Source: Planctomycetota bacterium | GTDB taxonomy: Bacteria > Planctomycetota > UBA1135 > UBA2386 | Direction of reading: 5' to 3' | NCBI GenBank assembly: GCA_016794485.1 | Contig: JAEUHV010000257.1 | Location: forward strand, 1-50,210 | DNA: 50,210 nt | Shown here: piece by piece, positions 1,582-49,459 of the stretch | How the letters are laid out: every line of letters starts with the position of its first letter | Numbering within the stretch: the first letter of the stretch is position 1 | Program-made: the position numbers and the translations under genes | The notes under the pieces: model-generated | Told to the model about the DNA's origin: nothing | Databases searched by the model: none | The model's input: only the letters and a program-made list of their open reading frames with translations

Positions 1582-4029
1582 ATGCGTGCCGTCTCGTCGT
1601 TGCTGGCGATTGCCAGCTTTGTCCCGTTTGCCACCGCCCAGTGCGCGAACGTCTGGCAGTCGCTGGGCGGCATCCCCGGCGTGAGCAGTGGGATTGGTGC
1701 CACGGCAATGCACGATCCAGATGGCCCGGGCCCCGCCACTCCCGTGGTCGCGTGTGGTGGCGGTTTCTGGTCGGCAGGCTCACTCCGGGTCGGATGCGTT
1801 GCCGCATGGGATCCCGCGACCGGGCAGTGGTCGACGTTCGGCACAGGAGTCAACGGTGGGGTGAATGCCATCGCGAGCTTGCCGAATGGCGCCCTGGCCG
1901 TGGCCGGGACGTTCACGATGGCTGGCGGTGTGCCAGCCGACGGCATCGCGATCTGGTCGGGTGGCGCATGGGCTCCCGTCGGCACCGGCGGAAGCGGGGT
2001 GTACGAGCTGCTGGCGATGCCGAATGGGGACCTCATCGCCGGCGGTTCGTTCGCGGCAATCGGCGGCGTGCCTGCCGTCGGACTGGCGCGTTGGGACGGC
2101 GTCGCCTGGTCGGCCCTGAACACGACCCCCAACGTCGTCGTCGACGCCATGCACGTGATGCCGAACGGCGACCTCGTCGTCGGTGGCACCTTCTCGGCGA
2201 TCGGTGGGATCGCTGCGGACCAGGTCGCGCGCTGGAACGGCTCGACCTGGTCCGCGTTCGGTTCCGGTTTGACGGGCAGCGTGCGTGCGTTGGCCGTGCT
2301 GCCGAATGGGGACCTCGTCGCCGCCGGGGACTCGCTCGGTTGGGTGAGCGGCGGCGGTGTGGTGCGATGGAATGGAACCACCTGGGCGCCGCTCGGGATC
2401 GGGCCGACCCAAGGCGTCTACTCGCTCACCGTGCTTCCGAACGGCAACCTCGTCGCCAGTGGTTCGTTCGATCAGGTCGTGCCGATCGCGCTCTCCCACA
2501 TTGCGCAATGGAACGGTACTGCCTGGGCAACCCTCGGCTCGGGCTGCAATGGGTGGGTCATGGCGACAGAGCTGCTGCCCAACGGCGAGGTCTTCGCGGC
2601 GGGATCGTTCTTGTTGGCTGGCGGAGCCGGGGCGTACTCGGCCGCGCGTTGGACCGGAACCGGGTGGCTGACCGCAGGGCCGGGGATCAACGACTTCGTC
2701 ATGTCGACGACCGCGTGGCCGGATGGCTCGCTCGCCATCGGCGGCTACTTCACCCAGGCGGGCAGCGTGGCCGCGCGTCGGGTCGCGTTGTGGGATGGCT
2801 CCGCGTGGTCGGCGCTCGGCTCCGGGATGAACGGTCCCGTCTGGTCGATCAGCGCCTTGCCCCAAGGCAACCTCGTCGCCGCAGGCCAGTTCACCCAGGC
2901 CGGGGGGACGACCGCCAACTACGTCGCGCGCTGGAACGGAACGAGCTGGCAGCCCTTGGGCACCGGGCTCAGCTCCTTCGCCACCACCACCTTGGCGTTG
3001 CCCAACGGCGACATCCTGGTCAGCGGCAACTTCCAGCAAGCCGGATCGGTCGCCGCGAGTTGCATCGCCAGATGGGACGGCACTGCCTGGTCGGCGCTCG
3101 GCGCCGGACTCAGCCACGCAGCCTATGCCATGGTGGTGTTGCCGGGAGGCGACATCGTCGCGGGTGGTGAGTTCATCACTGCGGGTGGTGTGCCCGCCAA
3201 CTACATCGCGCGCTGGAACGGCTCGGCCTGGCAGCCGCTCGGTACCGGCCTCGGCGGCGGCGTTCGGGCGCTGGCCCTGCTGCCGTCGGGCGACCTGCTC
3301 GCGGGTGGCTACTTCGATTACGCGGGCAGCATCGTCGCGCACAAGGTGGCGCGCTGGAACGGACAGGCGTGGTCGGCGATGGGGAACCCGGGCCAGGTCG
3401 TCCTGTCGCTGCAGGCCTTGCCCAACGGCGATGTGCTGGCGGGCGTCAACGGCCTGCTGCGACGTTGGGACGGCGTTTCGTGGAGCGCGTATGGTGCGGC
3501 GGACTTCGTCGTCGCGATGACTGCAGCACCCGACGGCAGTGTCGTGTGTGGCGGTTGGCTGAACTCGAATGGCACGGGCGCCGTGTTGCGCGGCGTCGCC
3601 CGACTCACGACGCCGTGTCCGGCAACTGCGGTGCCCGCAGGCCCCGGCTGCCCGAGCAGTGGCGGGGCCAACGCGCTGGCCGCTGCGTCGCTGCCGTGGG
3701 CGGGAGCGCCGTTCCGTTCGCGCGGTTCGGGCTTGCCGACGTCGGGGGTCGTGCTCGCCCTCACGGGACTGGCCCCCGCGTCCACGCCGCTGGCGACGTT
3801 GCACGCGGCGGCCCAACCCGGTTGCACGCAGATGGCGTCCGCCGACGTCGTGCACCTGCTGCCCAGTTCTGGCGGCACTGCCGAGTACGACTGGACGCTG
3901 CCGAACACGCCGGCGATCGCCGGCATCACGTTCCGCCACCAGATGATCCCGGTCGAGTTCGGCGCGAACGGTTCGATCGTCGCGATCACCGCGACCAACG
4001 CGCTGCAGCTCACCGTCGGCTACTTCTGA
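1582..4029 (+). CDS. secreted delta-60/kelch-like repeat protein with planctomycete-type C-terminal module
   Basis: The 815-residue product starts with a Sec signal peptide (hydrophobic to about residue 17, then ATAQ). About 13 repeats of roughly 40-47 residues follow, with the pattern LPNGDLVAGG-F-AGG-VARWNG-WSALG-G. Each would form a beta blade or strand set, so a propeller or solenoid is likely. The last ~130 residues form a separate beta-rich module with LPNTPAIAGITF and ending near TNALQLTVG; a similar ending occurs in two other secreted proteins of this window (8892-10760 and 18388-19641). The Cys after the signal peptide lacks a proper lipobox. I chose ATG 1582 because the signal peptide begins there; an in-frame start at 1549 would bury it. 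The biological role is unknown; extracellular or surface binding is an inference. Its 3' end overlaps the convergent DUF2149 gene by 10 bp. Confidence 0.8.
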   Translation: MRAVSSLLAIASFVPFATAQCANVWQSLGGIPGVSSGIGATAMHDPDGPGPATPVVACGGGFWSAGSLRVGCVAAWDPATGQWSTFGTGVNGGVNAIASLPNGALAVAGTFTMAGGVPADGIAIWSGGAWAPVGTGGSGVYELLAMPNGDLIAGGSFAAIGGVPAVGLARWDGVAWSALNTTPNVVVDAMHVMPNGDLVVGGTFSAIGGIAADQVARWNGSTWSAFGSGLTGSVRALAVLPNGDLVAAGDSLGWVSGGGVVRWNGTTWAPLGIGPTQGVYSLTVLPNGNLVASGSFDQVVPIALSHIAQWNGTAWATLGSGCNGWVMATELLPNGEVFAAGSFLLAGGAGAYSAARWTGTGWLTAGPGINDFVMSTTAWPDGSLAIGGYFTQAGSVAARRVALWDGSAWSALGSGMNGPVWSISALPQGNLVAAGQFTQAGGTTANYVARWNGTSWQPLGTGLSSFATTTLALPNGDILVSGNFQQAGSVAASCIARWDGTAWSALGAGLSHAAYAMVVLPGGDIVAGGEFITAGGVPANYIARWNGSAWQPLGTGLGGGVRALALLPSGDLLAGGYFDYAGSIVAHKVARWNGQAWSAMGNPGQVVLSLQALPNGDVLAGVNGLLRRWDGVSWSAYGAADFVVAMTAAPDGSVVCGGWLNSNGTGAVLRGVARLTTPCPATAVPAGPGCPSSGGANALAAASLPWAGAPFRSRGSGLPTSGVVLALTGLAPASTPLATLHAAAQPGCTQMASADVVHLLPSSGGTAEYDWTLPNTPAIAGITFRHQMIPVEFGANGSIVAITATNALQLTVGYF

Positions 4030-4313
4030 CCACCCGGAGCCTGCCCTTCCGGAACGTAGATCAGCCGCCCGTCGGCGAGCCGGTAGGCGACGCCGAGCCG
4101 TTCGCCCTGGCCCGACCGCTGCACGCCCGTGTCGACGAAGCCCTCGAGCTTCTGCCCATCGGGCACCGCCCGCGCAGCCTTGGCCCGGGCCGTCGACAGC
4201 GACACCAGCAGCGCCACCGTCAGCACCAGGATCGCGTCGAACAGGTTCGGCACGAACGCGACCGGATCGACGTCCTCGCCGGTGCGCAACGACGAACGGC
4301 GGCGCCGCCTCAT
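4020..4313 (-). CDS. DUF2149 family small membrane protein
   Basis: A 97-residue protein with an Arg-rich N-terminus, the motif GEDVDP (12-17), one transmembrane helix (about 24-40, beginning NLFDAILV) and a short soluble C-terminal domain. This matches the DUF2149 pattern, a family encoded beside CobN-like chelatases and MotA/TolQ/ExbB channels. By topology it resembles ExbD/TolR: a short cytoplasmic tail, one helix with an Asp near its start, and a periplasmic domain. I infer that it pairs with the ExbB-like protein encoded just upstream to make a proton-driven motor. Its ATG overlaps the upstream stop as ATGA (4310-4313). It ends inside the convergent repeat-protein gene. Confidence 0.8.
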   Translation of the reverse strand: MRRRRRSSLRTGEDVDPVAFVPNLFDAILVLTVALLVSLSTARAKAARAVPDGQKLEGFVDTGVQRSGQGERLGVAYRLADGRLIYVPEGQAPGGQK

Positions 4314-4834
4314 GCGCGGTCCTCGCCGTGGGCCGCGAGCCACGCATCGACGTCGACCAGGTCGGCCGCGTACCACTGCCGCCGCACGCTGCCCATCACC
4401 GCACACAAGAGCCCGACCAGCAGCCCGACCACGGTCGCCGTGAACGCGACCACGAGCGAACGCGCCAGCTGCGCCACGTCGTCTTCGCCGAGTGCCAGCA
4501 GGGCCGGGCCCATCGGGATCAGCGTCGCCATCAGCCCGAGCGTCGGCCCCGCGCGCGCGACCAGGTTGAGTCGCGTCACCATGCGTCCGCCTTCGACCTC
4601 GCACCGGTCGGCCAGGGATTCGAGGCCGTTGCGGTCGGTGCCGAGCGCCTGCGCCTGCCGGTGGAAGCGGGCGACCAGCCCGTGGTCCGGGCCCGCGGCA
4701 CGTCGGTCGCGCAGTTCGCGCAGGAAGCCGCCGGTCGCGAGCAGCGTCCAGGCCAGGAGGCCGAGCAGGGTGAGCACGACCGGCACCATCAGCAGGGTCG
4801 TGGCTTCGTGCAGCAGGTGTTCGAGGGCGTTCAT
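4310..4834 (-). CDS. MotA/TolQ/ExbB-family proton channel protein
   Basis: A 174-residue inner-membrane protein with three predicted helices (about 15-36, 95-116 and 126-149) and a cytoplasmic loop between the first two, the ExbB/TolQ layout. The second and third helices carry the family's typical pattern (RAGPTLGLMATLIPMG, then FTATVVGLLVGLL). Members use the proton motive force to drive a partner protein. Here the partner is probably the DUF2149 product, and the powered client the CobN-like protein. The ATG overlaps the cobN-like stop as ATGA (4831-4834), so the two are translationally coupled. It is shorter than typical ExbB (about 220-240 residues). Confidence 0.88.
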   Translation of the reverse strand: MNALEHLLHEATTLLMVPVVLTLLGLLAWTLLATGGFLRELRDRRAAGPDHGLVARFHRQAQALGTDRNGLESLADRCEVEGGRMVTRLNLVARAGPTLGLMATLIPMGPALLALGEDDVAQLARSLVVAFTATVVGLLVGLLCAVMGSVRRQWYAADLVDVDAWLAAHGEDRA

Positions 4835-7800
4835 CGCAGGACTCCGAGGCGCAGGCGGAACCCGACCAGCAGCAGGAGCACGGCCGCGGCGGCGACCAGT
4901 GCGCCCGACCAGGCGAGGGCGGGGGCGGTGGTGGCTGGTGGGGTCGGCGTCGGCGTCGGCTCGCGTGCCGGTTCCTTCGCTTGCATCTCGATGCCCTGCA
5001 CCGTGCCCGTGGCCGCGCCGGAGGCCGTGGCGGGCGCGACGACCGGGGCCGCGTCGGAGGCGGTCGCCGGCACCACGCTCGTCGTCGGTGCGGCCTTCGC
5101 GGCCGTTGCGTCGACCGTGGCGGTTGCGTGCGCCTGCACGAACTGCTCGAGCGCCGTGTTGCCGGCGGCGGTGAAGCCGCCGCCGTCGCCGTGCGCCGCG
5201 CGCGACTGCTGCAGCGTGTCGGCGAGCAACGCCAGCGTCTCGGGCTTCGCGTTCCACATGCCCTTGCGCGCGGTTTCGAGCAGGTTCTCGGCGATGCCCT
5301 GCAGCGCCCACGGGTTCTCCTTGGCGAAGAACTCCTTCAGGCCGAGCTTCAGCGAGTCGCGCACGTAGACGTCGGCAAGCTGCTCGAACGTGCTGTCGGG
5401 GATGGCACCGCTGCGCATCGTCTGCCAGCCGTACGCGTTCGACGTGATCACCTTGAGCTGGTCGGCGCCGGCGTAGCCTTCCTTCATCATGCCTTCGAGC
5501 CACTTGCGGTTCAGGGCGCGCACCCGGAAGTCGCGGCGCAGAGCCTGTTCGGCGTCGACCAGCGAAGCGCGGCCCATGTCGCGCAGGTCGTTCATGACGA
5601 AGCGCGGCTTCCGGCCGTCGCTCAGCGTCTCGATCGCCATCGCCAGCGTGCCACCGTGCAGCCACATGTACTTGTCGGTGGTCGGGCCGCGCGTGGTGTC
5701 GGCCCAGCTGCGCAGCACGTACTCGCTGTCCTTCAGGGCGCTGCGGAACGCGAGGTTCGCCTCCTCGCCCCAGGCGCCGTCGGTGTAGGCGTACTTCTCG
5801 CCGGCGAGCCAGGCCTCGGCGAGCTGCTTCTGGTCCTTCCAGTCGCCGGAGCGCTGCACCAGGTACGAGTACGACGCGTTGGCGCCGCCCGGGGGGCCGC
5901 CGAACATGCGCGCCTTGGCGAGCAGTTCGGCGCGGGCTGCTTCGACACCCGCCGCCTGAAGTTCGGCGGTGCGGGCCAGGGTCGCCGCGCGCACGCGGTT
6001 GTCGGGTTCGTCCTGCGCGATCGCCAGGCGAACGGCGCGGTCGAGAAGCTTGGCGCGGTCGGCCAGCATGTCGTTGTAGCGGCTGCCGCCCTGCAGGAAG
6101 ACGTCGATGCGCGGCCGGCCGAGCTTCTCGCGCGGCACCAGCGCCACGTCGACGACGTTGCCGCGGTTGTCGCGCACCGGCTCGCAGCCGAGCATCCACA
6201 GCACCTGCGCCTCCATCACGCCGAAGTCGCGGAACGAGTTCATCGCGCGGATGTTGAACGCGATCTTCGTCGGCCAGTCGCCGTGTTCGGCCTTGTGCTT
6301 CTGCAGCAGCTCGTCGGCGAGCTGCACGCCGATCTGCCAGGCTTCCTTGGTCGGCAGCTCGCGCGGGTCGAGCAGGAACATGTTGCGACCGGTCGGCACC
6401 GACTTCGGGTTGCGTTCGGGGGACTGGCCGGGCCCGGGCGTCACGAAGCGTCCGTCGAGGGCGCGCAGCAGGTTGTCGATCTCGAGCCGGGTGTCCGCGA
6501 GGCCGCGGTCGATCGCGGCGACCTCGTCCACGGCTTCCCGCAGCTTCGTCGGCGCGGTCGTGCCGGCGGCGGCGCCGCACGCGCGCAGCGCATCGTCGAG
6601 CGGCAGCTGGTCGCGCAGATGGCGGCGCAGCAGTTCCCCGGCGAGGTCGCGGCCGCGGGCGCGTTCGTGGTCGCCGGCGAACGGGCCGAGTCCGGGCACT
6701 TCACCGAGTGCGTCGAGCAGTGCCTGGCCGCCGCAGTGCACGAGCCACGGCAGGCGCAGCGCATCGTCCGGAGCCTGGCCCAGGCGGTGCAGCGTGGTCG
6801 GCGTGAGGTCCTCTTCGATCACGTGCAGTTGCGCGCAGACGAGGTCGAGTTGGCCGTCGTCGAGCAGTGCGCCCTCGGCGAGCTGCAGGTCGAGGTCGCG
6901 GTCCATGCCTTGCAGGCGCACCTGCTGCGTCACCGCCGAGCGCAGCTTCTCACGCAGCACCCCGGGCTCGAGGCGCTGCATGCGGTGCAGGTCGCGGTGC
7001 AGCGCGGCGAGGCCGTCGGCGAGACCGGCTTCCTGCGTCGGCGGAACCAGGTGGTCGACCAGGGTCGCGTAGGCGCGGCGCTTGCTCAGGATCGATTCGC
7101 CGGTGTTGTTGACGACCCACGGCGAGACGTTGGGCATGTCGCCGAACAGGATGTCGGGCCAGCAGAGCTGGCTCATGCCGACGTTCTTGCCCGGCAGGAA
7201 GAACTCGCTGCCGTGCGTGCCGAAGTGCACGTAGGCGTGCGCCCCGAACGTGTGCTCGAGCCAGAAGTAGGCGGCGAGGTAGCTGTGCGGCGGCGGGATC
7301 GCCTTGTCGTGCGTCTGTGACGGGTCGTAGGCCTCGCCGCGCAGCGGCTGCGGCATCAGCACGACGTTGCCGAGCCGGAGCATCGGCACGACGACGAACT
7401 TCTGGCCACGGCGTTCGACGACGCAGATGCGACCCGGCGCCGGGCCCCAGTGCTTCTCGAGGTCGGCGCGGGCGGCCGGCGGCACGCGGGCGGCGAGCCA
7501 GCGTTCGTAGTCGGCTTGCGGCACCAGCGGCACGAGCCCGCTGTCGGCCAGCCGTTCGGCCTCGCCGGGGCCGCTGATGCCGACGACGCGGCCGCTGCGT
7601 TCGGCCATGGCCACCAGCGTGTCCTCGTCGGCCGGCACGTCGACGCGGTAGCCGCGGTCGCGCATCGCCCGCAGCACCGCCAGCAGGCTCGGCGGCGCGT
7701 TGAGCATCATTCCGGTCGGGCTGCCGCGCATCAGCGAGCTGCGGCTCGCCTCGCGGTCGTAGTAGACGATGGCGATCTTCTTGTCGGCGGCCGGCACGGT

Positions 7801-8871
7801 GCGGAGCCTGGCCTCTGCGAGGGCACGGCCGACCACGCGTTCGATGCGGTCCGGGATCGGCGTGAAGTCCTCGTCGCTGCCGCCGCCGCGCACCGTGCCG
7901 CAGGTGGGGATCGGCGTGGTCGCGCCGAGCATCTCCTGGGTCGCGACCTGGAACATGATCTCGCTCGGGGCGATGCCGTTCGGCGACTGCTGCCAGTCGG
8001 CGATCGACTGCGTACGGAAGAACACCGAGTGCAGGTGCACCGCGTCGAGGGCAGAGCGAAACGGCACCTTCTCGGTCGAGTGGCAGGTGTGGATCACCAC
8101 CGCCGGCTTCAACTGCAGCATCAGCTTCTCGTAGGCGTAGCCGTCGAGCCCTTCGCCGCCGTCGATCGCGGCGAACGCGAGCGCGCCGCGGCGGTCGAGC
8201 GCCTCGACCAGCGCCTGCACCACGCGCGGCTGCTGCAACAGGAAGTGCGTGCTGTGCACGGCCACGGCGACGCGGGGCGCGTGGTCGACGTCGATGCCGC
8301 GCGCCTTGGCGTCGGCGAGCAGCGCGTCGACGTCGCGGAACGGTTCCTCGCGGCCGGGGCGATGCAGCACGCCGAGGTCGAGCGGCAGCGGCTCGGGGGC
8401 GGTGTCGGGTTCGCCGCGCACCTTCTGCCGCAGGGACTGCAGCAGGGCGGCGAGGTTCTCGCGGCGCGGTGCCTTGTAGTACGCGGTCAGCTTCGCGTCG
8501 TTCTCGACCAGCGCCTCGCCGCCGTGCGTCGTCAGCGCCGCCGCCCCGGACAGCGCGAACACGCGCAGGCTCGGGTGCAGGCGCTTCGCCGCGAGCAGCG
8601 CGGTCGCCAGTTCCTTGGGGTCGCGCAGGTGCTGCAGCACGACCGCGTCGGCGCGCGCGAACTCCGCGGCGCCGTTGGCGACCTTGTCGTCGTCGACGTA
8701 GCGGCAGGCGACGCCCGCGTCCGCGGCGAGCGCCTCGAACTTCGCGAAGGCGCCGCCGTGCAGGCCGACGAACGTCACCACGACGGGGGCCGGCGCGGAT
8801 TGCGCCCGCAGGCCGGCGCACGCGGTGAGCACGGCCAGGGCCGCGGCGGCGACGAACCGGCCGCGCGGCAT
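4831..8871 (-). CDS. exported, membrane-anchored CobN/ChlH/HmuS-type chelatase subunit
   Basis: A 1346-residue homolog of the large subunit of cobalt/magnesium chelatases (CobN, BchH). Family motifs are clear: HFGTHGSEFFLPGKN (about 547-561), CWPD, GDMPNVSPWVVNNTGE (about 575-590), KRRAYATLVDH, and MFGGPPGGANASY in the C-terminal half. Unlike cytoplasmic CobN it has an export signal: hydrophobic residues 6-17 end in LTAC, a good lipobox, with RAQ/S as an alternative cleavage site. It ends in a Pro/Thr/Ala-rich linker (about 1265-1318), one transmembrane helix and a basic tail. The catalytic body should therefore be periplasmic. No BchI/BchD-like AAA partner is nearby; instead it is coupled to an ExbB-like channel and DUF2149. 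That context matches HmuS-type proteins, proposed to insert or remove metal in haem-like tetrapyrroles. Substrate and direction cannot be read from sequence. Confidence 0.88.
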   Translation of the reverse strand: MPRGRFVAAAALAVLTACAGLRAQSAPAPVVVTFVGLHGGAFAKFEALAADAGVACRYVDDDKVANGAAEFARADAVVLQHLRDPKELATALLAAKRLHPSLRVFALSGAAALTTHGGEALVENDAKLTAYYKAPRRENLAALLQSLRQKVRGEPDTAPEPLPLDLGVLHRPGREEPFRDVDALLADAKARGIDVDHAPRVAVAVHSTHFLLQQPRVVQALVEALDRRGALAFAAIDGGEGLDGYAYEKLMLQLKPAVVIHTCHSTEKVPFRSALDAVHLHSVFFRTQSIADWQQSPNGIAPSEIMFQVATQEMLGATTPIPTCGTVRGGGSDEDFTPIPDRIERVVGRALAEARLRTVPAADKKIAIVYYDREASRSSLMRGSPTGMMLNAPPSLLAVLRAMRDRGYRVDVPADEDTLVAMAERSGRVVGISGPGEAERLADSGLVPLVPQADYERWLAARVPPAARADLEKHWGPAPGRICVVERRGQKFVVVPMLRLGNVVLMPQPLRGEAYDPSQTHDKAIPPPHSYLAAYFWLEHTFGAHAYVHFGTHGSEFFLPGKNVGMSQLCWPDILFGDMPNVSPWVVNNTGESILSKRRAYATLVDHLVPPTQEAGLADGLAALHRDLHRMQRLEPGVLREKLRSAVTQQVRLQGMDRDLDLQLAEGALLDDGQLDLVCAQLHVIEEDLTPTTLHRLGQAPDDALRLPWLVHCGGQALLDALGEVPGLGPFAGDHERARGRDLAGELLRRHLRDQLPLDDALRACGAAAGTTAPTKLREAVDEVAAIDRGLADTRLEIDNLLRALDGRFVTPGPGQSPERNPKSVPTGRNMFLLDPRELPTKEAWQIGVQLADELLQKHKAEHGDWPTKIAFNIRAMNSFRDFGVMEAQVLWMLGCEPVRDNRGNVVDVALVPREKLGRPRIDVFLQGGSRYNDMLADRAKLLDRAVRLAIAQDEPDNRVRAATLARTAELQAAGVEAARAELLAKARMFGGPPGGANASYSYLVQRSGDWKDQKQLAEAWLAGEKYAYTDGAWGEEANLAFRSALKDSEYVLRSWADTTRGPTTDKYMWLHGGTLAMAIETLSDGRKPRFVMNDLRDMGRASLVDAEQALRRDFRVRALNRKWLEGMMKEGYAGADQLKVITSNAYGWQTMRSGAIPDSTFEQLADVYVRDSLKLGLKEFFAKENPWALQGIAENLLETARKGMWNAKPETLALLADTLQQSRAAHGDGGGFTAAGNTALEQFVQAHATATVDATAAKAAPTTSVVPATASDAAPVVAPATASGAATGTVQGIEMQAKEPAREPTPTPTPPATTAPALAWSGALVAAAAVLLLLVGFRLRLGVLR

Positions 8872-8891: not shown

Positions 8892-10760
8892 TCACCACAG
8901 GAGGTGCGCCAGGCCGTTGCTGAGCTTGATGTCGCCGTTCGTCTTCAGCAGGACGTCCTGCATGAACATCGTCAGGCCGCGCAGGGCGGGCACGTCCGGC
9001 AGCGCGATCGGCGAGTAGAGCCGACCGTCGGCGGGCACGAAGCCGAGCGGCAGCGCGATCGGGTTGGCGTCGACGCGCAGGACCCCGTACGGCGTGCCCA
9101 GTTCGACGTCGGTCAGCGACAGCAGCGCGACGACGAAGGCCCCCGGGTTGCCCAGCTGGTTGTGCTGCAGCGGCTGGCCGAGCACCTGGAAGCGCGAGAA
9201 CTCGGGGAAGCGGCCGAAGGTGCTGAGCGAGCCGGTCGCCGAGTAGACGTAGACGTGGCTCGTGGTCTGCAGGAAGGCGATCGACGAGTTGACGTTCTGC
9301 GCGGTGAACGTGCCCTGCATCGGGATGCTCTCCCACTCGTAGTTCCACAGGCTGAAACCGAACGCGTTGGTGCCGTCCTGGCCGATGCCGACGAGGCGGT
9401 GCACGCCGAAGGTCGGGTTCAGGCCGGTGTTGACGCGCACCCAGCGGCTGTAGCGCGGGTCGAACACGTCGACGCCGCTGCCGTCGCGGATGCCGATGAT
9501 CGAGCCCTGGGTGAGCATCACGATCGTTCCGGTCGAGGCGAGGTCGGCGAACGTGCCGGTGCGCGCCGAGTAGGCCTGGTAGCCGGTCGGCGTCGTGCGC
9601 AGGATGCACTCGAAGTCGGCGGCGATGGCAAGTGCGGGCACATTCGGCGATTGCGCCCATTCGTTGCGGATCGCGGAGTAGGCGAAGCCTTCGCCGTTCG
9701 TTCCGGTCGCGAAGCCGGCGGTGTCGCCGAGCGTCAGCACCGAGGGCGCGTAGCCGGGGGCCACCGCCGATGCCCCGCGCAGGCCGCTGAAGCCGGTCAA
9801 CGTGGCGCCGTCGTCGACCAGCGCGTAGCTGCCGAACGAGCCGGCGGCCACCGCGACCAGCGGATTGGGTGCGCACGGGATCGGCGTCACCACGCCGGTG
9901 CCCGGGGCGTAGCCGTAGACCTCGCCGGTCGGCGTCTGGATCGTGGCGACCGCCGGGCCGAACGTGGTCACCGTGCCGACCGGAAAGCTCGACACGGTGA
10001 ACATGCCGCGCAGCGCGCTGAACCACAGGCGGTCGGTGCCGTTCGGCGACAGCGACGCGAAGCCGTCGCGCGAATCGATCGCGAGGCCCGTGGTGGGGTA
10101 GCCGATCGTGTCCCAGGTGTTCGTGTAGGTGCTGAACGCGGCGACCACGTCGGGGCCGCTGAACGTCGCGAACGCGCCGTTGCGCCAGGTGAGCACCTGG
10201 CCGGCTCCCTGCGTCGGCAGGGACACCCATTGGCCGAACAACGCGCTGAACGCGTGCGCGCGACCGCCTTCGAACGCGGTGACCACGTGCGAGTTGATGC
10301 CCATCTGTGGCGCCGTCTGGCAGGCAAGGTGCTGCCACTCGCCGAAGAAGGCCGAGAACGCCCAGACGTCGTTGCCGTCGACGACGTACGACGTCCACGA
10401 CGACGAGATCGAGCCGATGTTGACGATCGCGGTCGGGCTCACCGGCAGTTCGGCGACACGGGCCGTGAACGAGCTGTAGCCGAACACGCTCGAGCCGTCG
10501 CGCCACAGGCACTGCTTGTTGGCGAGGCCGACGAGCGTCGGCGCGGTCACCGGCTGCACGACCCACTTGCGGTGTTGGCCGGAGAAGAAGTGGTACTCGG
10601 TCGGCGTCTCGATCAGCACGATGGAGCCGATGCCGCGGACCTGCGTGGTGCCGGCGGGGCGGGGGTACTCGTTCCAGTAGGCGCCGTCGCTGGCCTGCGC
10701 CAGGACGGGGGCGGCGGCGAACGCGGCCAGCAGGAACACTCGGGAGAAGAAGTTCGGCAT
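8892..10760 (-). CDS. secreted propeller-like protein of unknown function in the chelatase operon
   Basis: A 622-residue exported protein with a Sec signal peptide (residues 1 to about 22, ending VLAQA). The body repeats a unit of about 45-60 residues centred on aromatic motifs such as FSAFFGEW, FSALFGQW, YTNTWD, YSAIRNEW and YSARTG, suggesting a beta-propeller or similar solenoid. The last ~85 residues (LPDVPALRGLTMF to the end) resemble the C-terminal module of the repeat protein at 1582-4029. Its stop lies 20 bp before the chelatase ATG on the same strand, so co-transcription is likely. I do not recognise the family. An extracytoplasmic partner of the chelatase is possible but rests only on gene order. 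Confidence 0.7.
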   Translation of the reverse strand: MPNFFSRVFLLAAFAAAPVLAQASDGAYWNEYPRPAGTTQVRGIGSIVLIETPTEYHFFSGQHRKWVVQPVTAPTLVGLANKQCLWRDGSSVFGYSSFTARVAELPVSPTAIVNIGSISSSWTSYVVDGNDVWAFSAFFGEWQHLACQTAPQMGINSHVVTAFEGGRAHAFSALFGQWVSLPTQGAGQVLTWRNGAFATFSGPDVVAAFSTYTNTWDTIGYPTTGLAIDSRDGFASLSPNGTDRLWFSALRGMFTVSSFPVGTVTTFGPAVATIQTPTGEVYGYAPGTGVVTPIPCAPNPLVAVAAGSFGSYALVDDGATLTGFSGLRGASAVAPGYAPSVLTLGDTAGFATGTNGEGFAYSAIRNEWAQSPNVPALAIAADFECILRTTPTGYQAYSARTGTFADLASTGTIVMLTQGSIIGIRDGSGVDVFDPRYSRWVRVNTGLNPTFGVHRLVGIGQDGTNAFGFSLWNYEWESIPMQGTFTAQNVNSSIAFLQTTSHVYVYSATGSLSTFGRFPEFSRFQVLGQPLQHNQLGNPGAFVVALLSLTDVELGTPYGVLRVDANPIALPLGFVPADGRLYSPIALPDVPALRGLTMFMQDVLLKTNGDIKLSNGLAHLLW

Positions 10761-14943: not shown

Positions 14944-16134
14944 TCACCGATGGTGCAGGGGAGCGGTGGTCGTCGTCGACGGTCCCACTTCGCGAAGTTG
15001 GCGAGGTGACCAGCCGAACACGAGGAACATCACCACGAAGCCGAGGGCGAAGCCGACCGCGACGTGCCAGCCGTGGCGCAGCCACGCGCCGACGGACTTC
15101 GCCTGGTCGAACACTCCGGCCACCGCGACTCCGGCCGAGGAGCCGAACCACAGCATCGAACCGCCGTAGCCGACGGCGAACGCGAGCAGGCCCCAGTCGT
15201 AGCCGCCCTGGTCGATCGCCAGCTTGGTCAGCGGGATGTTGTCGAAGATCGACGACACGAGGCCGAGGGCGAACGTGGTCGGCATGCTCGCCTCGGGCAG
15301 TTCGTGCACCGGCATCAACGACGCCGTCAGCACCAGCGCCAGCAGGAAGCACGTGCCCGGCAGCGCCCGGCGAACGACCGTGACGTCGAACGGCCGCAGC
15401 AGGCTGGCGAGCAGCAGCGTGCCCCAGACACCGACCGCGGGCAGTTCCCACACGAGGTTGGTGGCGATCGTCGCCGCGATCACCGCGCCGACGATCGCGA
15501 GGCGGGTGCCGTCGACCGGCTTCGCCGCCGCGGTGCTTCGCACCAGCGGTTGCAGCGCGTGCTGCTGGCCGCTCGCGAACCAGCCGAAGAACACGAACGC
15601 GACGACGGCGCCGAGCGCGGCCGGCGCGATCCACAGCGGCGATGCACCGGCGAACCACAGCATGGTCGTGGTGGTGTCGCCGATCACCGAACCGGCACCG
15701 CCCGCGTTCGCGGCCGCGACGATCGCCGCGAGGTAGCCGACGTGCAGGCGGCGCTGGAACAACGTCGAGGCGGCCGAGGCTCCGATCAGCGCTGCGGCGA
15801 TGTTGTCGAGCGCGGCCGACAGCACGAACACGACGAGCAGCAGCCCGAAGGCTCCGGCGCGACCGTTCGGCAGGCGCGCCGTCAGCCGCTCCGCGGCGTG
15901 GCTGCGTTCGAAGTGCGCGGCCAAGGCGGCGAATCCCAGCAGCAGGCCGGCGAGGTTGGCCAGGATCCGGCCTTCGTGCTCGAGATGGTGCGGCAGGTCG
16001 AAGCCTGGCACGAAGCACGACACCACGATCGCCGCAGCGAGGCCGCCGAGCGCCGTGCGCAATGCGTGGCGGTGGCTCACGGCAATGCCGGCGAGCGTGA
16101 GCAGGAAGATGCCGAACAGCAGGGTAGAGGTCAT
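14944..16134 (-). CDS. NhaD-type Na+/H+ antiporter / ArsB-related transporter
   Basis: A 396-residue polytopic membrane protein with about ten to eleven helices. Two half-repeats each carry a DN motif: LDNIAAALIGAS in the first half and FDNIPLTKLAID in the second. GGAGSVIGDTTTTMLWF closely matches the NhaD signature. The family exchanges sodium or lithium for protons and belongs to the ion transporter superfamily with ArsB and citrate carriers. Its place directly upstream of the trehalose genes suggests a salt/osmotic stress unit: ion export plus compatible solute. The start at ATG 16134 gives a hydrophobic N-terminus; upstream in-frame sequence is not membrane-like and was excluded. Confidence 0.85.
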   Translation of the reverse strand: MTSTLLFGIFLLTLAGIAVSHRHALRTALGGLAAAIVVSCFVPGFDLPHHLEHEGRILANLAGLLLGFAALAAHFERSHAAERLTARLPNGRAGAFGLLLVVFVLSAALDNIAAALIGASAASTLFQRRLHVGYLAAIVAAANAGGAGSVIGDTTTTMLWFAGASPLWIAPAALGAVVAFVFFGWFASGQQHALQPLVRSTAAAKPVDGTRLAIVGAVIAATIATNLVWELPAVGVWGTLLLASLLRPFDVTVVRRALPGTCFLLALVLTASLMPVHELPEASMPTTFALGLVSSIFDNIPLTKLAIDQGGYDWGLLAFAVGYGGSMLWFGSSAGVAVAGVFDQAKSVGAWLRHGWHVAVGFALGFVVMFLVFGWSPRQLREVGPSTTTTAPLHHR

Positions 16135-16184
16135 GACGAGGTCCGCGCTGGCGGCCCGACCAGCGCAGACCTGCCGAAACCACG

Positions 16185-16228
16185 TCCGGCACCCTTGTAA
16201 GGCCGCTTGCTTAGGTGAACGTGCCGGA
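16185..16228. promoter_or_regulatory. 8-bp inverted repeat in a divergent intergenic region
   Basis: TCCGGCAC (16185-16192) and GTGCCGGA (16221-16228) are perfect inverted arms separated by 28 bp. They sit 51 bp upstream of the antiporter ATG and 122 bp upstream of the XRE-VOC gene. This is a reasonable place for an operator bound by the XRE-VOC protein or another dimeric regulator. No consensus promoter is obvious between the arms. Confidence 0.4.
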
Positions 16229-20995: not shown

Positions 20996-21778
20996 GTGCG
21001 CGCCTCCTTCCTGCTCCTGTCCTGCCTGCTGCACGGTGCCGTGCTCGGCACGGCCCTGGTCGTGCACGCGCACGCCGGTGGGACGGTGCGGCCGCGCGCC
21101 AACGTCGAGGTGCGGGCGCAGCGCGGCAGCGAAGCGACGATGACGCTGGTGGTGCGCGAACGGGCGCCGCGGATCGAGTTCGAGGCGCAGCCCGCCGACG
21201 ACGCGGCTCGGCGTCCGGTGGCCACGCGCGAGCCGGCTCCGGAACCGCCGCCCGAACTGTCGCCGGTCGAGTTCCCGGCGGAGACCGCGGCCGAACTGCT
21301 GGCGCGGCTCGGCGCCGGGGCGCAGCGCGAACTCGCCGAAGCCGAACGGCAGCGACCCGTGGCGTCGCCGGACGTGCCGCCCAAGGTGCCGCTGGGCACG
21401 GTCGGCAAGCACCGGGCGATGCCGCCGGCGGCCGACACCGATTCCCGGCCGGCCCCGAAGGTCGCCGAGGTCGCGCATGCGGAAGCTCCGTGGATCGACG
21501 CGGTGCGCGCCGCGGACAACGAAGCGCCGCGGTTTCCGGAGGCCGAGCGCCGCGCCGGGCACGAGGGCACCGTGGTGGTCGCGGTCGAGGTCGACGCCGC
21601 CGGCCGGGTCGTGTCGGTCGAGCTGCAGTCGGGTTGCCGTTGGCCCGGCCTCAACCGCGAGGCCCTGCGCGCGGTGCGTGGCTGGCGGTTCGAGCCGGCG
21701 CGGCGCGTCGGCGTGGCGGTGCCCACGTCGACCATGGTGACGGTCGAGTTCCGGCTGCAGGACGCGGCGACGAAGTGA
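20996..21778 (+). CDS. TonB-type energy transducer
   Basis: A 260-residue protein beginning with GTG. One N-terminal helix (about 3-25) anchors it in the inner membrane. A Pro/Glu-rich periplasmic stretch follows (PAPEPPPEL near 79). The C-terminal domain (about 178-258) has the TonB fold pattern: PRFPEAERR, EGTVVVAVEVDAAGRV, ALRAVRGWRFEPAR and VTVEFRL. TonB passes energy from ExbB/ExbD to outer-membrane receptors. No ExbB/ExbD pair adjoins it; the only ExbB-like gene in the window is in the chelatase operon at 4310. The stop codon lies in a palindrome shared with the convergent glycosyltransferase gene. Confidence 0.85.
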   Translation: MRASFLLLSCLLHGAVLGTALVVHAHAGGTVRPRANVEVRAQRGSEATMTLVVRERAPRIEFEAQPADDAARRPVATREPAPEPPPELSPVEFPAETAAELLARLGAGAQRELAEAERQRPVASPDVPPKVPLGTVGKHRAMPPAADTDSRPAPKVAEVAHAEAPWIDAVRAADNEAPRFPEAERRAGHEGTVVVAVEVDAAGRVVSVELQSGCRWPGLNREALRAVRGWRFEPARRVGVAVPTSTMVTVEFRLQDAATK

Positions 21779-28217: not shown

Positions 28218-28248
28218 GATCCGCGCCGCCTCTCGGGCGGGGCGGATC
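28218..28248. terminator. strong hairpin between convergent genes
   Basis: The arms GATCCGC-G-CCGCC and GGCGG-G-GCGGATC pair over 12 of 13 positions (one G-G mismatch) around a 5-base loop. It lies 100 bp past the GT4 stop and overlaps the stop codon of the convergent DUF2779 gene, so it could end transcription from both sides. There is no T-run on either strand. It is the best terminator-like structure in the window. Confidence 0.55.
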
Positions 28249-29827
28249 ACTCGGGGTCGGGCAGCTTCTTCGGCAGGGGCTTCGGCAAGGCCTTCGGCTT
28301 CACCTTGGCGACCTCGGGCTTGGGCTTTTGCGCCGGCGGCGCGACTCCGGCGTAGGTGTTGAACAGCTGCAGCAGCCGTTCGGTCGTCCACACGAGGCCG
28401 GCCACGATGTCGGCGCCGAGCTTGTCCTTGGTCGCCTGGCGCACGCGCGGTGCCCATGCCTTCTGCAGCGCTTCCAGCACGGCGTCCTCACCGACGACGG
28501 CCAGGTCCTTGCCGCTGCCGTCGCCGAGCAGGGCTTCGACGCTGGCGCGCAGGTCCTGGTGCGTGCGCACCTTCGGATGGAACACCCCGGCGTCGAACAA
28601 CTGCATCAAGTCGAGGTGCGGCGTCGAGACGAGCGCACGCGCCGCCGCCTTGGCGTTCGGCAGGTCGTCCAGCAGGGAGCGCAGTTCGTCCAGCGCGTCG
28701 TCGTCCCACACGACGATGGTGCCGCCGACTTCCAGGTGCTTTTGCAGCGACGTGGCGAACCCGGGGCGCGGGTCGGTGCGGTCGATGTGCACGAACGTCG
28801 CGGTCTCGAGCCGGCCATCGGCGTGCACGGTGTGCGCCGACCACGCGTACGGCACCAGCCGCCACGGCCGTTGGCCGTCGAAGCGCGGCAGCGGATCGGT
28901 GACGGCGCCGATGGCGAGGAAGTGCAGCGGCTTGCTGCACTGGGTGAGCTCGTCCTTGACGAACGGTTCGACGATCGGCTCGCCCGACTTGATGCACTGC
29001 AGGGTCTTGCGTTGCCGGAAGGTGAGGTTCGGCCGCGCTTCGTCGAGCCCGGCCAGGTCTTCGATGCCTTCCTTGTGCAGTTCGAGCTCGAGCTGGCGGG
29101 TCAGCTCGGGCAGCTCGCGCAGCGGCAACGGTGGTGCTTCCTTGGTGCAGCGCGCGACGTGCGGGCACGGGAACGGGTTCGTGCAGAACGTGCCCATCGG
29201 CAGCTGCAGCACGCCGTCGTCGGCGATCGCGGTCCGGCACGTCTGCACGCGGCGCCGGGTCGGTTCGAGCTGCTTCTGCACCTTCGCGGTGACGTCGCTG
29301 CTGCGCAGCAGCTGCATCGGCGGGAAGTCGGTCCCTTCCTTGTGCACGTATTTCGGGTTGACCTGCAGCAGATACGCGGCGCGCATCTTCAGGCCCGATT
29401 GTTCGAGCACGAGCGCCTGCAACGCGAGGTCGTTCACGTAGCGGTGCTTCACCTTCGTGCCCGACTTGATCTCGTACAGGTCGCACAGGCCTTCCTTGTG
29501 CAGCACCAGCACGTCGCTGCGCGCCTCGACACCGTCGGCGACGAACGTCGCGCCGAACAGCACCATCGCGCCGGCCGCGATCTTGGCCTTGGTCTCGGCG
29601 GCGGCGGCCGTGGCCTCCGTCGCTTCGATCGCGATGCCCTTCGGGAACGCCGTGCGAGCAAGGGCGCGCAGCTGCTCGCCGGCCGCCGACATCGCGGCAC
29701 GCAAGGCCGAGGGGGTCTCGGGCACCGGCTCGTGGTAGTCGAGCCACAAGCGCTTCTGGCATTGTTGGCCGGCCTCGAACAGGAACTTGTCGAGCAGACG
29801 AGGGCGGGGCGGCGTTTTCTTCGTCAA
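28247..29827 (-). CDS. DUF2779 family protein: Cas4-like Fe-S PD-(D/E)xK nuclease with degenerate exonuclease-like half
   Basis: A 526-residue protein. The N-terminal half looks like a Cas4/RecB-type nuclease: QQCQKRLWL near 20-28, an Asp near 105, E-I-K at 119-121, then three further cysteines (about 215, 221 and 227) that with Cys23 could hold an iron-sulfur cluster. The C-terminal half follows the DUF2779 pattern (PRFDGQRPWRLVPYAWSAH, GGTIVVWDDDA). In the family the segment before PRFDG usually contains a catalytic D-x-E (FLDFET-like); here it reads FLAIGA, so the RNase-H-like exonuclease site appears lost. The C-terminus is Lys/Pro-rich. No ATG or GTG exists before the conserved start; I chose TTG 29827, with TTG 29893 as the alternative. 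The role is unknown; DNA repair or defence is plausible. Confidence 0.72.
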   Translation of the reverse strand: MTKKTPPRPRLLDKFLFEAGQQCQKRLWLDYHEPVPETPSALRAAMSAAGEQLRALARTAFPKGIAIEATEATAAAAETKAKIAAGAMVLFGATFVADGVEARSDVLVLHKEGLCDLYEIKSGTKVKHRYVNDLALQALVLEQSGLKMRAAYLLQVNPKYVHKEGTDFPPMQLLRSSDVTAKVQKQLEPTRRRVQTCRTAIADDGVLQLPMGTFCTNPFPCPHVARCTKEAPPLPLRELPELTRQLELELHKEGIEDLAGLDEARPNLTFRQRKTLQCIKSGEPIVEPFVKDELTQCSKPLHFLAIGAVTDPLPRFDGQRPWRLVPYAWSAHTVHADGRLETATFVHIDRTDPRPGFATSLQKHLEVGGTIVVWDDDALDELRSLLDDLPNAKAAARALVSTPHLDLMQLFDAGVFHPKVRTHQDLRASVEALLGDGSGKDLAVVGEDAVLEALQKAWAPRVRQATKDKLGADIVAGLVWTTERLLQLFNTYAGVAPPAQKPKPEVAKVKPKALPKPLPKKLPDPE

Positions 29828-48769: not shown

Positions 48770-49459
48770 TCAAGCCGGGCGTTCCGTGACGGACAGCAGG
48801 CCATGGCGCCTCCAGCCGGTCGTCAGCAGCCAGGTGTGCGCATCGGTGATCGGACGAACCACAGCTTCGATGCCGCGCACGACGATTGTCTCGCGGAAAC
48901 CGTCGAACCACGGCGCCGAGGTGTAGGTGTCGATCGCCTGGGCAACGGTGACGGCGCGACCTTCGGCTGCGTGCTTCTTGCCGTTGCCGAGCACGTAGCG
49001 CAGTGCATTCCGGACCTCGCGCGGCGAGCGCAGGATGTGGTCGTGGTACCGGTCGGCGAAGACCCGCCCGCGGCGATCCCAGTGTTTGTTGAGGGCGCGT
49101 GCGATGCGGACCAGCAGTCCCTGCACGCCGCGTGACAGCGTGGTGCGGCCGTTCGCCTCGACGACGAAGTGCAGGTGGTCGTTGAGCACCGCGTAGTGGA
49201 TGAGCCGGAAGCCGTTGCGATCGCAGCCGGCGGCGAACGCCGCGCGCAACGTGGCGTAGGCCTCGCGGCGTCGCAGCGGCGGCAGGTGTTCGCGCAGCTT
49301 CACCGTGACGTGCACCGGGAACCGCGCCGCGAGCACCGCGCGCGTGTCGTGTGGAACACCCGCCCGGTCGCCGTTCGGCTTGCGGCCGGCGCCAGCCCGC
49401 CGCCCGCCGTGCTGGTTGCGGAACGGCAGCAAGGGGGCTCTGGTGCCGTCGGTCCGCAT
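48770..49459 (-). CDS. REP-associated tyrosine transposase-like protein (Y1/HUH, RAYT)
   Basis: A 229-residue single-strand DNA transposase of the IS200-like Y1 superfamily. The HUH motif is HLH at 95-97 (NDHLHFVVEA). The segment RRGRVFADRYHDHIL (about 129-143) and ALRYVLGNGKKH place the likely catalytic Tyr at 155 by comparison with E. coli RAYT. The N-terminus has GGRRAGAGRKP, common to RAYT-like genes of Planctomycetota and Myxococcota. RAYTs are usually single-copy domesticated genes that act on nearby palindromic REP sequences. I chose ATG 49459 because it gives the compact N-terminus; the frame is open further upstream, without family similarity. Confidence 0.8.
   Translation of the reverse strand: MRTDGTRAPLLPFRNQHGGRRAGAGRKPNGDRAGVPHDTRAVLAARFPVHVTVKLREHLPPLRRREAYATLRAAFAAGCDRNGFRLIHYAVLNDHLHFVVEANGRTTLSRGVQGLLVRIARALNKHWDRRGRVFADRYHDHILRSPREVRNALRYVLGNGKKHAAEGRAVTVAQAIDTYTSAPWFDGFRETIVVRGIEAVVRPITDAHTWLLTTGWRRHGLLSVTERPA

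Follow-up and report, generated by a model that had tools for sequence, protein, structure and literature searches.

Our analysis covered a stretch of planctomycete DNA of 50,210 nucleotides, referred to here as the window, and revealed three genes on its minus strand that encode a CobN-like, an ExbB-like and a DUF2149 protein. The genes are joined by ATGA overlaps at 4831–4834 and 4310–4313, as the first-pass annotation had described. The identities proposed there were all confirmed by Pfam matches above the cut-offs. The CobN-like protein spanned the full CobN-Mg_chel profile (PF02514) at 875 bits, the product of the next gene matched MotA_ExbB (PF01618) at 35.5 bits against a cut-off of 22.9, which bears out the claim of an ExbB-like partner of its own, and the third protein matched PF09919 at 53.8 bits against a cut-off of 27.1. 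In the features below, HmuS residues are numbered as in PMC12583661, where HmuS of Bacteroidota was experimentally proven to be a haem dechelatase in 2025.

4831–8871, minus strand: exported CobN/ChlH-type protein (class I chelatase fold), 1346 aa; PF02514 and AlphaFold model
8895, minus strand: alternative GTG start of the CobN-like gene, 24 bases earlier, overlapping the stop of the upstream gene
8800–8871, minus strand: signal peptide, residues 1–24, with a lipobox-like LTAC and also LRA-QS; sequence and hydrophobic N-terminus
8629–8631, minus strand: head-domain His81, within a QHxR motif, at the position of HmuS Met79 (haem-site-1 ligand), where the alignment with HmuS is weak
8080–8082, minus strand: His264, corresponding to HmuS His254 (site-1 haem ligand, neck); residue conservation
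7213–7215, minus strand: His553 of HFGTHG, corresponding to HmuS His538 (catalytic); conserved in all groups
7096–7098, minus strand: Glu592, corresponding to HmuS Glu577 (His-carboxylate dyad); conserved in all groups
5668–5670, minus strand: Tyr1068, at the place of HmuS His1209; residue conservation
4858–4920, minus strand: C-terminal transmembrane (TM) helix of the CobN-like protein, about residues 1318–1338; hydropathy 2.4
4310–4834, minus strand: MotA/TolQ/ExbB-like channel protein, 174 aa; PF01618 and profile of relatives
4020–4313, minus strand: DUF2149 protein, 97 aa, with one TM helix (residues 17–48); PF09919, invariant Asn23 and Asp26
8892–10760, minus strand: secreted protein of 622 aa, whose stop overlaps the alternative CobN start; homologues upstream of other CobNs

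The CobN-like protein begins with a signal peptide, and its gene may start at the GTG at 8895. At the other end, a Pro/Thr/Ala-rich linker is followed by the TM helix, which is common to nearly all relatives, and by a short Arg-rich tail. The signal peptide and the C-terminal helix together agree with the exported body, Pro/Thr-rich linker and single TM helix noticed in the first-pass annotation. Its lipobox-type signal peptide stood in part. The signal peptide and the LTAC sequence are present, but the lipobox was found in only 2 of the 17 window-clade members (the window protein and 1 of the 16 others), and an ordinary signal-peptidase I site (LRA-QS) fits the N-terminus too. Conservation therefore gives no support to lipoprotein status.

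A Pfam search with the 622-aa upstream protein gave no match. Homologues of it are encoded immediately upstream of CobN in three other genomes (G179, locus L045; G363, L212; G229, L213), which adds two further families, and this gene is therefore probably the first of the CobN operon. A DUF1559 pilin-like gene occupies the slot upstream of CobN in many other window-clade planctomycetes. The contig is native to its genome; its exonuclease III is 76% identical to that of the same genus and 69% to that of the same family, and misbinning is not supported.

Among 392 planctomycete genomes, PF02514 was found in 49, DUF2149 in 43 and both in 38, where 5.4 would be expected (hypergeometric P 2e-37). 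Thus 38 of the 43 genomes bearing DUF2149 also have CobN, usually adjacent. Among 40 DUF2149 loci read with their flanks, CobN homologues were present at 34 and MotA homologues at 37. A wider scan of 84,980 species was reduced to its best 80 loci, nearly all of which encode exported CobNs with the C-terminal helix, most of them with both small partners. They belong to Planctomycetota, Verrucomicrobiota, Acidobacteriota, Gemmatimonadota, Desulfobacterota, beta- and gammaproteobacteria, Bacteroidota and methanogens, consistent with the earlier statement that the set occurs in other phyla. Close to the window the set is patchy, since a genome of the same genus (95% complete) and two of the same family have neither CobN nor DUF2149. 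These results indicate that the gene set is real, conserved and widespread, and that it is of the HmuS/BtuS kind and not a new kind. BtuS is an exported CobN-like protein of a third type (Rodionov et al. 2003, as cited in PMC6460266); like it, the window protein has the CobN fold, is exported and is distinct from both CobN and ChlH. The set had been put forward as the best candidate novel system of the window. This is not supported, given the wide distribution of the set and the existing proof that HmuS, its member in Bacteroidota, is a haem dechelatase.

A CobN tree was built with the active-site motif columns excluded; its reference sequences, taken from printed alignments, fill only about half of the columns. 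In this tree all exported CobNs fall together (100/100) and separate from cytoplasmic CobN (7c6o, 9uk9) and ChlH (4zhj), also at 100/100. The phylogeny called for in the first-pass annotation, with CobN, ChlH and HmuS as references, thus places the window protein away from the cytoplasmic cobaltochelatases, and, being in a separate clade, it is not a ChlH orthologue. The exported clade divides into branch II (99/99), with archaea, betaproteobacteria and B12-linked members, and branch I (96/95), with HmuS and one further clade (100/100). The latter splits into two highly supported groups, the window clade, whose cultured planctomycetes include Singulisphaera acidiphila and Botrimarina, and a receptor-linked 'SNHH' subclade. 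HmuS is the closest characterised relative, in line with the earlier reading. The window protein lies in the HmuS branch but not inside the HmuS clade, both that clade and its own having 100/100 support; by sequence, the window clade is a sister clade distinct from the HmuS clade. The latter is anchored as a real hmu operon by a Bacteroidales locus (L155) with HmuY (PF14064), a TonB receptor, CobN, an HmuT-like gene, MotA and DUF2149.

The HmuS-type active-site motif (TWG-LSLDHVYEFMGG) was also found outside Bacteroidota, in three loci of Planctomycetota (L041, L048, L053) and one of Acidobacteriota (L143), and those of them that were placed in the tree fell inside the HmuS clade with full support. 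Three other planctomycete PF02514 proteins (L074, L076 and L079, from genomes G058, G158 and G005) group with ChlH; these ChlH/BchH-like proteins sit in a phylum not known for chlorophyll.

We read the three genes as encoding an HmuS/BtuS-type machine for metallotetrapyrroles in the periplasm, most likely acting on haem and having its own proton motor, and hold this with about as much confidence as doubt. The HmuS system of the Bacteroidota hmuYRSTUV operon (PDB 9d26, 9p4s) likewise has an exported CobN fold with a C-terminal membrane helix, encoded with HmuU and HmuV, of which the MotA/ExbB-like and DUF2149 proteins are the counterparts. It differs from the window set, which has no adjacent HmuY, HmuR or HmuT.

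The AlphaFold model of residues 24–1223 of the CobN-like protein (pLDDT 91.1, pTM 0.91) has as its best PDB match haem-bound HmuS (9d26, TMq 0.86, rmsd 4.8 Å); CobN 7c6o (TMq 0.79, 6.1 Å) and ChlH (about 0.73) match less well. All 17 window-clade proteins retain His254, His506, His538 and Glu577 of HmuS. The site-1 His254 is also present in 5/5 HmuS and 10/10 SNHH proteins, but in 0/14 of the B12-linked group. The position of HmuS His1209 divides the groups differently: the HmuS-type (5/5) and SNHH (10/10) proteins have His there, the B12-linked group has Asp (14/14), and the window clade has Tyr (17/17), followed by a loop that is one residue shorter. The motif LSLDHxxEFMGG, which holds His1209, is absent, the window protein reading TTDKYMWLHGG, and HmuS Glu1212, Trp1202 and Ser1199 are not kept in the window clade. 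The Met-rich insertion of domain IV is also missing, that region of the window protein having no more than 1 Met per 60 residues. At the place of Met79, all 17 window-clade members have His, in a weakly aligned region where the HmuS-type proteins read also lack Met.

Haem demetallation is not simply transferable from HmuS to the window clade, because the second catalytic His has been lost. This loss also makes a serious rival of another explanation, that the protein binds a tetrapyrrole without removing the metal and acts in the periplasm as a carrier or transducer, driven by the motor, that passes haem on. The replacement of His1209 throughout the clade would fit such a role, and so would a related pair of exported CobNs (L039, 10290–14558; L117, 552–4706) in which His538 is lost too, the GTHG histidine being replaced (RFGSFDAQ) and the NKY motif absent, and which retain the MotA and DUF2149 genes. 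To judge from their sequences, these two are possible pseudo-chelatases with the motor kept. However, a pure carrier would have no obvious need of His538, Glu577 and His506, which are fully conserved in the window clade, and Tyr is a good haem ligand and a possible proton donor. We regard the carrier as unlikely, and the window branch, with Tyr for the key His, as probably a variant of the HmuS-type enzyme.

As for the substrate, receptors next to four sets (L032, L033, L043, L111) of the 28-row clade that includes the window protein scored 169–201 bits with haem-receptor models and 99–107 with the B12 model, all below the curated cut-offs. Elsewhere in the window genome there is one full haem-type TonB receptor (contig C233, locus L181; haem model 212, B12 model 92, below the curated cut-off), which is closest to receptors beside branch-I sets. 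It was rejected as the dedicated partner of the CobN set, because relatives without CobN have orthologues of it and the CobN-bearing genomes G179 and G389 do not. Receptor scores are weak evidence in any case, since for the receptor of the real hmu operon at L155 the B12 model gives 174, against 128 from the haem model. Nor is haem use restricted to branch I, since one betaproteobacterial receptor in branch II scores above the haem cut-offs. There are no haem genes within the window. The window genome (MAG 83% complete) encodes a FeoB-type protein, and no ferrochelatase was found in it.

The alternative that the substrate is a corrinoid, in B12 salvage or remodelling, draws on relatives whose exported CobN genes stand beside DUF4430, CbiZ or riboswitches. 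In branch II, cobalamin riboswitches adjoin the sets at L130, L132, L163, L170 and L178, CbiZ those at L052 and L050, corrin genes that at L119, and a B12-type receptor (BtuB model, 314 bits) that at L060. All of this evidence lies in the other branch, which places a B12 function behind haem. Neither the window nor the window-clade loci that were scanned showed a cobalamin riboswitch, CbiZ or any other B12 sign. The BtuS-like, riboswitch- or CbiZ-linked exported CobNs lack His254, which in the window clade goes with HmuS as the branch assignment does, and they have Asp where the window clade has Tyr. A corrinoid substrate is thus rather improbable, and haem demetallation is the leading guess for the window set.

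Inside the exported CobN clusters at L052 (6518–8455) and L067 (1870–3828) we observed a BtuF-like periplasmic binding domain fused to CbiZ, an adenosylcobinamide amidohydrolase; of the two, Pfam was run on L052 only.

A profile of 23 relatives of the ExbB-like protein matches the TolQ, ExbB and MotA structures (best E 1e-4), and the MotA relatives keep the motifs GP-LGL-GTLIPMGP and F-TTV. In 45 DUF2149 sequences the TM helix has an invariant Asn and Asp (consensus ANLFD), and the outer part is short, ending in G-AYRL-G-VYVPE. The set thus resembles ExbB/TolQ/MotA with ExbD/TolR/MotB in combining an ExbB-like protein with a small single-TM partner that has an invariant TM Asp. It differs in that DUF2149 is not detectably homologous to ExbD and in that the moved protein would be CobN, not TonB. 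The DUF2149 Asp aligns with the channel Asp of ExbD at an hhalign probability of only 5.7% (pairwise E 0.0067), and a structure search with the DUF2149 model (pLDDT 77) gave no fold match. Homology to ExbD is therefore not established, and the likeness seen in the alignment is suggestive.

In PMC12583661 (Figure 1 legend) HmuU and HmuV of Bacteroides are drawn as powering the outer-membrane receptor HmuR, and many sets elsewhere do adjoin a TonB receptor. By this model the ExbB-like and DUF2149 pair would have no direct role in chelation. It is improbable for the present family: the window-clade loci mostly keep the pair without an adjacent TonB receptor, L032 being an exception, and several loci have, in addition to the pair, a canonical TonB-ExbB-ExbD system. 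Methanogens lack an outer membrane and should therefore not need a TonB receptor; they encode MotA, DUF2149 and CobN together at five loci (L119, L129, L148, L158, L175), with no receptor within the stretch read. The motor partner there should be CobN and not a TonB receptor. The simplest reading, we infer, is that the pair acts on CobN, with the C-terminal helix as the moved element, and replaces AAA+ partners.

The window protein shares the six-domain fold and an HFGTHG-type motif with CobN of CobNST and with ChlH/BchH, but these are cytoplasmic, ATP-driven with CobS/CobT or ChlI/ChlD, and in a separate clade. The automatic family match as CobN and the full-length PF02514 match notwithstanding, topology and phylogeny refute an ordinary cytoplasmic cobaltochelatase subunit, barring an error in the start codon and signal peptide, and it is hardly credible given scores well below every NCBIfam CobN/BchH cut-off and the finding of no CobS or CobT above cut-off in the seven genomes with window-clade CobN, the window's MAG (83% complete) included. 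The first-pass annotation had noticed no BchI/BchD-like genes nearby; BchI/ChlI was not found above cut-off in the seven genomes, at a cut-off which no control genome passes either.

For the periplasmic haem machine with its own motor we propose the following scheme. The CobN-like protein would be exported and tethered to the inner membrane via its C-terminal helix. A metallotetrapyrrole, most likely haem, would first be bound between head and neck by His264, perhaps together with His81, and would then move into the central cavity, to be held and protonated there by His553, with Glu592, and by Tyr1068. Iron would be released as Fe2+ and passed to a Feo-type transporter. The ExbB-like and DUF2149 proteins would form a proton channel pulling on the CobN membrane helix, in place of the AAA+ ATPase partners of CobN/ChlH.

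The haem machine is favoured by the shared branch with HmuS, the best fold match to 9d26, the four kept residues, the preference of the clade's receptors for haem models and the confinement of B12 evidence to branch II; the motor is favoured by the TolQ/ExbB match of the MotA profile, the invariant TM Asp of DUF2149 and the receptor-free methanogen loci. Against this reading count the missing His1209, Glu1212, Trp1202, Ser1199 and Met-rich insertion, the lack of haem genes in the window and of the usual adjacent TonB receptor, a C233 receptor that is not CobN-specific, the NADH that HmuS requires in vitro to convert haem to PPIX and Fe(II), and a DUF2149-ExbD similarity that is only suggestive. 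The narrower proposal, a planctomycete dechelatase subfamily with His-Tyr in place of the His-His of HmuS and a dedicated motor that pulls on the chelatase by proton-motive force, is doubtful but possible. If it is true, the ExbB-like and DUF2149 pair would add to the AAA+ pairs a third type of drive for class I chelatases, one shared with methanogens.

Direct proof of enzymatic haem demetallation without oxygen came only in 2025, in Bacteroidota (PMC12583661). Our comparison places HmuS in a far wider family of exported proteins, with two or more substrate branches. One clearly delimited planctomycete clade has exchanged a catalytic residue. The motor genes accompany the chelatase even in organisms that lack an outer membrane. 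The role of HmuU/HmuV and the power source of class I chelatases outside the cytoplasm are now directly testable.

Elsewhere in the window, a protein with a TonB C-terminal domain (PF03544, 61.6 bits) is encoded at 20996–21778 on the plus strand, away from the CobN set. Minus-strand genes at 28247–29827 and 48770–49336 encode a DUF2779 protein and a Y1/IS200-like transposase domain protein, respectively. An nhaA-I RNA motif (16146–16194, minus strand; 50.6 bits against a gathering cut-off of 37) lies directly upstream of a CitMHS-type transporter gene at 14944–16134.
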